From Nitrospira sp. BO4 (GTDB taxonomy: Bacteria > Nitrospirota > Nitrospiria > Nitrospirales > Nitrospiraceae): a DNA stretch of 64,000 nt. A model generated the notes under the pieces. That model had not been told where the DNA came from and made no database searches. It saw only the letters and a list, made by a program, of their open reading frames with translations. Every line of letters starts with the position of its first letter. Position 1 is the stretch's first letter. Positions 9,160 to 13,389 of the stretch are shown here, piece after piece. Location: assembly GCA_030144965.1 (NCBI GenBank), contig JAMPUU010000012.1, forward strand, positions 372,001 to 436,000, read 5' to 3'. The position numbers and the translations under genes were made by a program.

Positions 9160-11403
9160 TTAGTTCAGCGCGTTCAACGCGGAACCGGCCTTAAACCAGG
9201 TTAGTTGTTGTGCTGTCATGCTGTGGTTCGCTTGGATCTTTATATCGCCTTCGGCCTTGTGAATGACCACCGTCACCGGTTTGCCAGGCGCCAGGTTCGC
9301 CAAGTCCACAACGCTGAGCCGATCGCTCATTTCGATCTTCTCGTAGTCCTTGGGATCGGCGAAAGTCAACGGCAGGATGCCCTGCTTCTTGAGATTTGTC
9401 TCGTGGATGCGCGCGAAACTCTTGGTAATCACCGCTCGCACATTCAAAAACCGCGGCGACATGGCGGCATGCTCCCGGCTGCTGCCTTCGCCGTAATTCT
9501 CGTCGCCGACGACGATCGAACCGATGCCCTTTGCCTTGTAGGCGCGGGCGATCTGCGCGATCGTGAGGTTGGATTCGCCGGTCAATACGTTCGTGCCCTT
9601 GCCCGGCTCGGACGCGAACGCGCTGTTGGCGCCGAGGAACATATTATCGCTGATCTTGTCGAGATGTCCGCGAAACTTGAGCCACGGACCGGCAGGAGAG
9701 ATATGATCGGTCGTGGTCTTCCCTTTGGTCTTGATCAATAACGGCAACTTCTCCAAGTCTTTCCCATCCCAACGCGGGAACGGTTGCAGCAATTGCAGCC
9801 GTTCACTGGTCGCTGGAATGTCGACGGTCAAGGCATCGCCGTTATCAGCCGGCGCCACGTACCCTTCTTCACCCTTGGCGAAACCTTTGGCCGGAAGCTC
9901 TTCTCCCACGGGAGGTTCGAGCTTGAATTCCTTCCCGTCGGCAGCCTTCAGCTTCTGGTTGACCGGATCGAACCGGAGATCGCCGGACAGCGCATAAGCC
10001 GTCACGACTTCCGGGCTGGCCAAGAACGACAATGTCTCGTTAATGCCGTCGTTGCGGCCCGGAAAATTCCGGTTGAAGGAGCTGACGATCGAATCCGCTT
10101 TCCCCTTCACGCCGTCGGCGCGTTTCCACTGTCCGATGCAGGGTCCGCAGGAATTCGACAACACTGTGCCGCCAAGGTTCTCGAACGTCTCCAGAAAACC
10201 ATCGCGCTTCATCGTGTGATAAATGCGCTCGGATCCCGGCGACACGAGAAACGAGGTCTTCGCTTTCAACCCTGCTTTGAGGCCCTGCTGGGCGATGTGC
10301 GCCGACCGGCTGATGTCTTCATAGGAGGAATTGGTACAGCTCCCGATCAAGGCCGCCTTCAATTCAACCGGATACCCCTTTTCCTTCGCTTCTTCAGCCA
10401 GCTTCGAAATCGGCCGCGCGAGGTCCGGGGTGTGTGGACCGACGACATGCGGTTCCAGCTTCGACAGATCGACTTCGACGATCTGATCGTAGTATTTCTC
10501 CGGTGACTGATACACTTCAGGATCGGCCACGAGCAAAGCCTTGTTGGCCTGAGCCAAACTTGCCAGATCCGACCGGTCCGTGATGTTCATGTAGGCAACC
10601 ATCTTTTGGTCAAATGGGAACACGGACGTTGTCGCCCCGAGTTCGGCCCCCATGTTGCAGATGGTCCCCTTCCCTGTCGCGCTGATCGTCTCCGCGCCGG
10701 GTCCAAAATATTCGACAATCTTATTGGTCCCGCCCTTGACCGTCAGCAGGCCGCACAGATAGAGGATCACGTCCTTCGGCGAGGCCCAACCGTTCAATTT
10801 GCCGGTCAGACGGACACCGATGAGTTTCGGATGGAGCACCTCCCACGGCAAACCAGCCATAACCTCACCGGCGTCAGCGCCGCCGACGCCGATTGCCAAC
10901 CCGCCCAACCCACCGCCGTTGGGCGTGTGGGAGTCGGTGCCGATGATCAAACTGCCCGGGAATGCATAGTTTTCGAGCACCACTTGGTGAATGATCCCGG
11001 CGCCCGGCTTCCAGAACCCGATCCCATATTTCTTGGCTGCTGAGGCCAGGAAGTTATAGACCTCCTTGTTTTCATCCACCGCGCGAAGCAGATCCTTTTC
11101 GGACCCCATTTCGGCGCGAATCAAATGATCACAATGGATCGTGCTCGGCACGGCCGCTTTACTTTTTCCGGCTTGCATAAATTGAAGCATCGCCATCTGC
11201 GCCGTGGCATCCTGCATCGCCACACGATCGGGGCGCAGCGCCAGCATGGCTTTGCCACGCTCCCAGTGTTGGGTCTCGAAATTATCGGCATGCGAAACGA
11301 GAATCTTCTCCGCCAACGTCAAGGGACGGCCGAATTTCGCCTTTGCCTTTGCGCAAAGATCCGGCATCTTGGCGTAGAGCTTTTTCGCGAGCTCGAGTGA
11401 CAT
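9160..11403 (-). CDS. acn: Aconitate hydratase, mitochondrial/AcnA-like type
   Basis: This 747-residue protein interconverts citrate and isocitrate. The [4Fe-4S] ligand cysteines are visible in GSCTNSSYED and NSCGPCIGQW, and the substrate-binding segment is IGTDSHTPNGGGLGGLAIGVGG. The C-terminal swivel domain carries NYGEGSSREHAA. Overall it is closer to mitochondrial aconitase than to AcnB, because the domain order is normal and there is no N-terminal HEAT-like domain. AAGGAGAG precedes the ATG. It sits between aclA and idh, as expected for citrate-to-2-oxoglutarate conversion or its reverse. Confidence 0.96.
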   Translation of the reverse strand: MSLELAKKLYAKMPDLCAKAKAKFGRPLTLAEKILVSHADNFETQHWERGKAMLALRPDRVAMQDATAQMAMLQFMQAGKSKAAVPSTIHCDHLIRAEMGSEKDLLRAVDENKEVYNFLASAAKKYGIGFWKPGAGIIHQVVLENYAFPGSLIIGTDSHTPNGGGLGGLAIGVGGADAGEVMAGLPWEVLHPKLIGVRLTGKLNGWASPKDVILYLCGLLTVKGGTNKIVEYFGPGAETISATGKGTICNMGAELGATTSVFPFDQKMVAYMNITDRSDLASLAQANKALLVADPEVYQSPEKYYDQIVEVDLSKLEPHVVGPHTPDLARPISKLAEEAKEKGYPVELKAALIGSCTNSSYEDISRSAHIAQQGLKAGLKAKTSFLVSPGSERIYHTMKRDGFLETFENLGGTVLSNSCGPCIGQWKRADGVKGKADSIVSSFNRNFPGRNDGINETLSFLASPEVVTAYALSGDLRFDPVNQKLKAADGKEFKLEPPVGEELPAKGFAKGEEGYVAPADNGDALTVDIPATSERLQLLQPFPRWDGKDLEKLPLLIKTKGKTTTDHISPAGPWLKFRGHLDKISDNMFLGANSAFASEPGKGTNVLTGESNLTIAQIARAYKAKGIGSIVVGDENYGEGSSREHAAMSPRFLNVRAVITKSFARIHETNLKKQGILPLTFADPKDYEKIEMSDRLSVVDLANLAPGKPVTVVIHKAEGDIKIQANHSMTAQQLTWFKAGSALNALN

Positions 11404-11541
11404 TGCTCTCTCCTTACGAGCGGGCTAGGGACATGATGTCGGGAGCGAGGGAGTTGCTCTCCCTTGCCGCGCACCCTTCACCGATAGCCTCTGTTAGAGC
11501 GGCACATCCCGCCACTCTCCGAGCAGCAGGAGCTCCCGCAG

Positions 11542-11598
11542 TTATTTCAGCGGTGGCACTTCGCGGCGCTATTTTAACGGCGGAACTTCCCGCCGCTT
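11542..11598 (-). repeat. 27-bp tandem repeat of the aclA C-terminus, second unit beyond the stop
   Basis: Reading the minus strand, the last nine codons of aclA (KRREVPPLK, 11572-11598) are followed by TAG and then CGC CGC GAA GTG CCA CCG CTG AAA TAA, again RREVPPLK and a stop at 11542-11544. The TAG occupies the place of the first-unit AAG. Apart from that A-to-T change, every difference between units is synonymous (CGG/CGC, CGG/CGC, GTT/GTG, CCG/CCA, TTA/CTG). Read through the TAG, the protein would end in two copies of the tail. Confidence 0.9.
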
Positions 11599-13389
11599 CG
11601 GCGCCGCGTAGTTCACCAGGTAATCGAATAGCCGAATCAACCGGCTGTCCTGTCGCTTCTGATCGACCCAGTGGCCGATCAATCCGATCGTGCGCGAGAG
11701 AATAAAGAAGCCATTCAAGCTGTCGACTGGAAAGCCGAGATCGACCAGAACAGCCGCCATCGTCCCATCCACGTTCAGAATCAGGTTGTCTTTCTTGGCC
11801 GCCGTCACCTGTTCAACTTGCAAGGCGAAGTCGAGACAGGGCGTCTTGATATGGAGACTCTTCACATAGCCGACGAGTTCCTTCACCCGCTTGTCCGGAT
11901 TGCGCAAGCTTTTCACCCGGTGGCCGATACCAGGCACAGGCCCGACGCTCTTCTTCATGTAGGCCAGAAACTCATCCACGTTCATCTTGTTGTCGACCGC
12001 ATATTTGAACCAACGGCCGGCGTCCGTGACGGCGCCTCCAAAGCGAGGTCCAATCATAATCAATCCGGCAGCCACGGCTTGCGACAGACCGATTCCGGCG
12101 CAGGCGGCCAGAATCGTCGCATAGGCACCGCTGACACAAGGGCCATGGTCGGCCGACAACATCATAATTCGCTTGATGATTTCGGCCTCTTGCTTCGAGA
12201 TCAGCCGTTTGTCCCATAGTAAGCCGATGACGTGCGGGATTTCGTACCCCTTGTTGATGAGTTCGGAGGCTGGATAGCCGTCATAGCACGGTTCGTCACC
12301 GCGATCGTCGCTGATCGTCGTGCGGATGAGGGGCGCCACCATGACTTCGTCCGCCTTGATGGCTTCTTCGACGGTTTTGGGGAGCTTGGGAAGACTGACA
12401 GGCTCGATGACTTCTTTGATCTGACCGGACTTTAAGAGTTCTTGATACGCGTCCTTGATGGCAGGTCCAAGCGCGCCGAATGTCGGAGGGACGATGGCAC
12501 CGGCCTTCTTGAGCGCATCCGACTTGGACCTGGCCGACCCTTCTCCCTTCATGCCTTCCTTGGCGCCGGCATGGCCGAACTTCATCCCCTTCGGTAAGCT
12601 CTCCTGACAGAATCCGGAGACGACACCGATCAGCTTGACCCGTCGCTTCTTGGCTCCATACCACTCGGCAGCCCGCTCTTCGAGGTCCCCACCCATTTCA
12701 CCGACAATCACGACGGCTTTCGTCTGCGGGTCGTTCTCAAACATTTCGAGATAGCTCACATAGTCGGTGCCGGGATATGCATCGCCGCCGATCCCGATGG
12801 CCGTCGTAATGCCGTCCGCAAACTGCGAACAGATCCAGATGATCTCGTTGGACAAACCGCCGGACTTTGTAATGACGCCGAAGGAACCCTCACGATATAA
12901 CTTCGAGAGCACCAGGTTATCGAACGCTCCGCCGATCACTCCCAACCGGCACGCACCGGCGGAGATGATTCCGATCGAGGAGGGACCGTTGAACACCTTG
13001 CCGAGCTTGCGGGCATGAGCGCCGAGCAGCTTCGCGTCTTTTTCCGGCACTCCCTCTGTGATCATTGAGACCACCTTAATGTGGGAGTCATCCAGTGCTT
13101 CCATCGCGCCCTTCATCGCGCGATCCGCGCCGATATAGACCAGGCTGGTGTTGATCGTCGAATGGCTCTTGGTCGCTTCAGCAATGGTCTTGTAGATCGG
13201 GATAGCCATCAAGCCGCTGCCGTACGGAATTTCGTTGGTTTTGCCGGCGTCCGGCGGATAGACGAACGCCTCGACGTTGAGCGGACGCTTGATCAGATAG
13301 CAGAACTCCGCCATACGGCGGGCTGCATTGACGCCCGCGGCGCCACCCTGGATCACCACGCGGGTGTCTTTATTGGCTAGAATACTCAT
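11569..13389 (-). CDS. aclA: ATP-citrate lyase, large subunit (AclA)
   Basis: The 606-residue product joins a succinyl-CoA synthetase alpha-like half with a citrate-synthase-like C-terminal half. The first half starts MSILANKDTRVVIQGG and has its phosphohistidine at His273 in KFGHAGAKEGMKGEGSARSKSDAL. The second half contains GPCVSGAYATILAACAGIGLSQAVAAGL and PGIGHRVKSLRNPDKRV. With AclB it splits citrate to acetyl-CoA and oxaloacetate with ATP and CoA, the signature step of the reductive TCA cycle. A GAGGAGATTCC ribosome site precedes the ATG. Oddity: the last nine codons are repeated in frame right after the TAG stop (see 11542-11598). Confidence 0.97.
   Translation of the reverse strand: MSILANKDTRVVIQGGAAGVNAARRMAEFCYLIKRPLNVEAFVYPPDAGKTNEIPYGSGLMAIPIYKTIAEATKSHSTINTSLVYIGADRAMKGAMEALDDSHIKVVSMITEGVPEKDAKLLGAHARKLGKVFNGPSSIGIISAGACRLGVIGGAFDNLVLSKLYREGSFGVITKSGGLSNEIIWICSQFADGITTAIGIGGDAYPGTDYVSYLEMFENDPQTKAVVIVGEMGGDLEERAAEWYGAKKRRVKLIGVVSGFCQESLPKGMKFGHAGAKEGMKGEGSARSKSDALKKAGAIVPPTFGALGPAIKDAYQELLKSGQIKEVIEPVSLPKLPKTVEEAIKADEVMVAPLIRTTISDDRGDEPCYDGYPASELINKGYEIPHVIGLLWDKRLISKQEAEIIKRIMMLSADHGPCVSGAYATILAACAGIGLSQAVAAGLIMIGPRFGGAVTDAGRWFKYAVDNKMNVDEFLAYMKKSVGPVPGIGHRVKSLRNPDKRVKELVGYVKSLHIKTPCLDFALQVEQVTAAKKDNLILNVDGTMAAVLVDLGFPVDSLNGFFILSRTIGLIGHWVDQKRQDSRLIRLFDYLVNYAAPKRREVPPLK

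Follow-up and report, generated by a model that had tools for sequence, protein, structure and literature searches.

The gene that we take, from the initial annotation and from family knowledge, to be aclA, encoding the alpha subunit of ATP citrate lyase, ends in Nitrospira sp. BO4 with a short peptide that is spelled a second time behind its stop codon. The question raised by this locus is why sequence past a stop should repeat the end of the protein, in frame and with silent differences only, and whether the second copy is or recently was translated. The initial annotation of the window (the whole 64,000-nt stretch of contig JAMPUU010000012.1 analysed here) proposed that protein-level constraint had acted on both copies and offered three readings: a longer protein was made until a recent AAG-to-TAG change, the TAG is read through, or the gene end recombined with a divergent allele. 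These and other explanations are weighed here against aclA ends from across the genus.

The repeat at the aclA end

On the minus strand, from 11598 to 11542, aclA ends KRREVPPLK-TAG and is followed in frame by RREVPPLK-TAA. After a first AAG, the codon pairs (unit 1/unit 2) are CGG/CGC, CGG/CGC, GAA/GAA, GTT/GTG, CCG/CCA, CCG/CCG, TTA/CTG, and AAA/AAA, and the stops, TAG/TAA, differ too. The repeat is exactly as first described: the eight repeated codons carry six base differences, all six of them silent, which for six random substitutions in 24 bases has a probability of 1.1e-4. Two further 27-nt units, both degraded, lie past unit 2. The features of the locus are given in Table 1.

Table 1. 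Features at the 3' end of aclA, in window positions
Feature	Position	Strand	Evidence
aclA (name presumed), 606-aa alpha subunit of ATP citrate lyase, ending in TAG (11569-11571)	11569..13389	-	sequence; in 79/79 genus genomes searched
Unit 1, coding tail RREVPPLK + TAG	11569..11595	-	sequence; tail conserved across order and beyond
Unit 2, post-stop RREVPPLK + TAA, read as demoted former coding tail	11542..11568	-	sequence + comparisons
Unit 3, LRELLLLGE, in frame but degraded; the conserved 3' anchor starts here	11515..11541	-	unit scan, spacer comparison
Unit 4, degraded in-frame copy WRDVPL + stop, hairpin-forming	11488..11514	-	unit scan, spacer comparison
Remainder of aclA-acnA spacer	11404..11487	-	spacer comparison
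Aconitase gene (acnA; name presumed from family knowledge), downstream of aclA	9160..11403	-	ORF

A second genome of the same species (G065, two contigs) has the same two-unit layout as this genome (G000), which excludes an assembly error. Within this genome the repeat stands alone. When the last 27 bases of 363 ORFs (404 kb of this genome) were compared with the 150 bases past each stop, aclA was the sole outlier, its tail copy matching at 20 of 27 positions; the next-best ORF reached 17, as did the shuffle maximum.

The repeat had been matched to a second tail of sucD, a likeness that does not survive comparison. The second sucD tail sits in a 713-base block (3-711 vs 1548-2241, 85% identical) that holds the sucD tail together with downstream DNA, and a porin-like gene lies between the two tails. 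The duplication is also found in G065, and one copy is present in the stretches read of the related genomes G063 and G001. The sucD repeat is a separate, ordinary tandem duplication of about 1.5 kb, and the aclA mechanism was rejected for it.

A 27-nt array across Nitrospira

The ends of aclA were read at 106 loci, 70 from the genus set and 36 from a collection of named genomes. The coding tail is exactly APKRREVPPLK, then a stop, in 101 of the 106, and the remainder are off by one or two residues. Elsewhere in the phylum, further families and classes have similar tails (APKRREVPPLK, SPKRREVPKLK, and SPKKREVPPL), which indicates that the coding tail of aclA is old and constrained at the protein level. 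One metagenome-assembled genome labelled Nitrospira lenta (L189) has an aclA that ends RREVPPLKQ, with a single extra Q; it is the sole longer form among the 106.

Comparison of aclA ends across the genus, which had been suggested as a check, finds at least one tail-like 27-nt unit past the stop in 31 of 70 genus-wide loci, so the repeat is not special to this genome. The units were scanned for with a matrix built from coding tails, at a threshold reached by 1% of shuffled spacers. Most of them (54/66) keep the aclA reading frame, and units shifted out of frame are found in G014, G030, G033, and G052. The longest array, in G053, reads RREVPPLK/RREVPPLK/SREVPSLK/TREVPPLK/AHGAPPLK/LREVPPLGE WRNMPP/ (a solidus marks a stop codon), with five stop-ended units in a row, and that of L192 reads RREVPPLK/SREVPPLK/AREVPPLK/. 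Such head-to-tail units at fixed 27-nt spacing, up to five of them stop-ended, form a minisatellite-like tandem repeat array. Its copy number differs by one unit between close relatives (G063/G001 and G053/G031); within the species studied here, for which two genomes were compared, the layout is the same. On an aclA tree of 94 rows, from which L189, L191, and L192 are left out, presence of the array changes at least 12 times.

Several loci without tail units (L021, L026, L031, L089, and L184) have other inverted repeats in the same post-aclA spacer, in the form of short, sloppy motifs (TGCTGAGT, CGTGAAACGTGAAGCG, and AGCTGATAGCTGA).

A literature search in which subscription journals were thinly covered found no description of an aclA-tail array. 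The 27-nt array of coding tail plus stop is real, genus-wide, and apparently undescribed.

Silent divergence between adjacent units

One candidate origin for such an array is a plain tandem duplication, within one lineage, of the final 27 nt; since then the coding copy would have taken only silent changes and the second would have drifted. The adjacency of the units, their exact in-frame spacing, and the 27-nt steps by which sister genomes differ are all as expected from duplication, and palindromic units could favor slippage. The divergence between neighbors is not. Between the coding tail and the first post-stop unit (codons 2-8, 16 clades resampled), pS is 0.74 and pN 0.08, that is, silent divergence is near saturation and replacement is low. 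Duplication followed by neutral decay to a pN of 0.08 predicts a pS of only 0.15, calculated with silent changes in both units, replacement changes in the second alone, and a simple one-parameter correction. The coding tail and first post-stop unit show 84 silent differences, and 69.7 are expected between tails of different genomes; each unit is only 27 nt long and each comparison contributes few changes. Plain duplication would require a strong survival bias toward diverged copies, and we regard it as unlikely. Part of the silent excess may nonetheless reflect such survival, near-identical tandem copies being deleted and diverged neighbors alone persisting.

Silent divergence at the level found between species indicates that the two tails most likely diverged while both were coding and were joined later. 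Unit 2 is most likely a former coding tail that came to lie behind a new stop through unequal recombination with a divergent tail. Its nearest coding tail, that of L184, has one difference from it; shuffled tails come as close, and the comparison singled out no donor. In G065, G063, and G022, unit 2 starts with a codon other than arginine, and the intact arginine pair of unit 2 in this genome may have been gained secondarily rather than preserved.

Gain, loss, and possible exchange of units

Pairs of sister genomes show units crossing the boundary between coding and post-stop sequence. G063 has two units and its sister G001 is exactly 27 nt shorter, with a coding tail that fuses the start of unit 1 to the end of unit 2; in G001, then, codons whose homologs in G063 lie past the stop are coding. 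Loss in G001 would be the simpler direction, because other members of the clade have two or more units. Similarly, the counterpart of the G031 coding tail in its sister G053 is the second unit. The branches joining these pairs have supports of 100 (G063 and G001) and 85 (G031 and G053), taken from an earlier aclA tree in which L189, L191, and L192 were misplaced by fixed-length cutting. Among genomes with a shared 3' anchor, the coding stop is TAG in 15 of 16 multi-unit genomes and TAA in 10 of 10 single-unit genomes (p = 2e-6, kinship uncorrected), a split that is expected if units come and go ahead of a fixed TAA.

Exchange between lineages is suggested by the surroundings of the array. Of the 31 positions at which G000 and G065 differ over 4.8 kb, 22 fall within 11162-12049, tail included, a clustering that resembles the mosaics typical of recombination. 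As to which of the two genomes would carry an imported tract, the alleles of relatives are split 7 vs 5. The last 110 bases of the spacer in this genome are 92% identical to G063, 96% to G001, and 83% to G022; for the flanking genes, identity to G063 and G001 is 83-85%. G033 and G059 are equally divergent in their genes, but their spacer ends are 62-64% identical to this genome. Transfer of a short segment carrying the array is the simplest reading of the spacer identity; functional conservation within the subgroup could also account for it. For the 3' end of the spacer as a whole (11404-11541, 92-96% to G063 and G001), a transferred segment and a conserved acnA leader are both conceivable.

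Of the original readings, recombination of a divergent allele at the gene end holds up in a broader form, given the between-species level of silent divergence, the 27-nt gains and losses between sisters, and a gene end and spacer that are more alike between some species than the flanking genes. It is generalized here to a lasting repeat array, and most likely holds for many genomes.

RNA structure

Units of the array can be inverted repeats, and an alternative is that they are a selected RNA element, in which hairpins between aclA and acnA stabilize, process, or insulate the mRNA and stem pairing, not protein, keeps the copies alike. Coding tails of array-bearing genomes are more palindromic than their synonymous recodings predict (mean folding z of -2.7 with arrays, -0.4 without), which may reflect either slippage-prone palindromes or selection for hairpins. 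Independent pairs also link arrays with palindromic tails at one threshold (median p 0.03), but the association depends on the threshold (median p 0.03, 0.125, or 0.375), and a palindromic tail as driver of the array was rejected as a trend only. Spacers that lack units are also structured (mean z -1.7), which would fit a selected element in the spacer; folding, however, is no stronger where units are present (mean z of -1.35, vs -1.66 without), and spacer-wide structure was rejected as the cause. In this genome the coding unit and units 3 and 4 can fold, but the stem of unit 2 is broken. A search of Rfam returned no match and nothing near the gathering score. An RNA element is an improbable explanation for the array, and any function of the units is unproven.

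Coding constraint past the stop

Continued translation is another explanation for a second copy with silent differences only: a two-tailed AclA would be made by readthrough, or would have been made until recently. All six differences of unit 2 are silent, the internal stops of arrays are mostly TAG with a final TAA, and UAG is generally known to be leaky when a C follows. The evolution of post-stop units points the other way. Orthologous in-frame post-stop units were compared 17 times between close relatives, with pairs picked by kinship; silent changes number 12.7 and replacement changes 25.3 (pN/pS 0.82), spread over the three codon positions as 15/12/11; the coding tails of the same genome pairs have 10 silent changes and no replacements. 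Coding constraint past the stop, as readthrough would entail, is not found, and the units behave as neutral sequence that also acquires frameshifts and stops. Even within the species, unit 2 of G065 reads GREVSLLK. TAG is an ordinary stop in this genome, where it terminates 101 of 319 long ORFs in the part sampled, or about one-third, and the TAG/TAA pattern of arrays is accounted for by the insertion of units upstream of an anchoring TAA that stays in place.

The AAG-to-TAG reading fares no better: none of the 106 Nitrospira aclA tails read encodes a second unit within the protein. GREVSLLK in G065, the pN/pS, the frameshifts, and the commonplace use of TAG together argue against both readthrough and a recently lost long form, and with no long-form tail among the genomes read both were rejected as very improbable. 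Constraint on both units, as claimed initially, is upheld as history, both having most likely once been coding tails; as a present function it is not supported by these comparisons.

Some integrases insert at gene 3' ends and bring a synonymous replacement tail with them, but a scar left by a mobile element that used the aclA end as its attachment site and rebuilt the tail is scarcely credible, since the spacers that could be read through to acnA are all shorter than 250 bases and have no element at the site, and the copies form arrays of up to five exact 27-nt steps.

Comparison with known repeat systems

Several bacterial repeat systems share features with the aclA array. The MIRU/VNTR arrays of mycobacterial operons (e.g., upstream of fpg1) have units of 40-100 bp at many scattered loci (PMC2734929). 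Like these, which differ in copy number between strains, the aclA array has tandem units between neighboring genes and a copy number that changes in unit steps, here between close relatives; unlike these, its unit is 27 nt, copies the coding tail and stop, and is found at a single gene. REP sequences are short palindromic units of spacers, 20-40 bp long (PMC3733652), to which the aclA units correspond in length, in spacer position and, for those units that can fold, in palindromy. REPs are present in high copy throughout the genome, however, and the aclA unit is confined to aclA in the 12 genomes searched (this one and 11 others): a search allowing up to three mismatches found aclA and control-level matches, the latter being one three-mismatch match each in G000 and G059, and a reversed control pattern gives no fewer. 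A dispersed REP family was rejected on this basis. The intragenic coding tandem repeats of tolA (PMC3477136) resemble the array in that copy number changes in frame and the repeat touches coding sequence, but each aclA unit has a stop, so that extra copies extend the untranslated part and not the protein. Finally, mosaics made by homologous recombination at gene ends likewise have clustered differences between members of a species and a spacer more alike than the flanking genes; they differ in that the aclA junction is unequal by one unit and the old tail is left behind.

A model for the aclA array

We favor the reading that aclA carries at its 3' end a tandem array with a 27-nt unit of eight codons and a stop, and that the repeat is part of this array. 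Selection would act on the first unit alone, because it encodes the conserved C-terminus of AclA, and units past the first stop would be untranslated former tails. We infer that unequal recombination, moving in steps of 27 nt, generates new layouts, and that its partners include aclA ends from divergent Nitrospira. A TAG-terminated donor tail would join ahead of the resident tail and push it behind the new stop; a 27-nt deletion would do the reverse, making a post-stop unit coding. Unit 2 in this genome would be a demoted tail, presumably brought into its position by recombination with a divergent strain, that by chance has no replacement change. Taken as a whole, this account of array, unequal recombination, and demoted tail is probable.

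A further proposal is tentative. The array might serve as a store of spare C-termini: across species, deletions of 27 nt would repeatedly promote units to coding and insertions of 27 nt would demote them, so that the tail of a central enzyme might evolve through swaps of entire silent haplotypes as well as through point mutation.

Implications

Silent-only differences between adjacent copies can mislead, as they resemble selection on a hidden product and stem here from the joining of what were most likely two once-coding tails. For annotation, in-frame homology past a stop need not imply readthrough. The 27-nt repeat seems to grow, to shrink, and to be swapped between Nitrospira species. If the cycle of promotion and demotion is true, recombination at the repeat between species would renew the C-terminus of AclA in a globally important nitrifier, and the array would provide a simple marker of recombination at gene ends.
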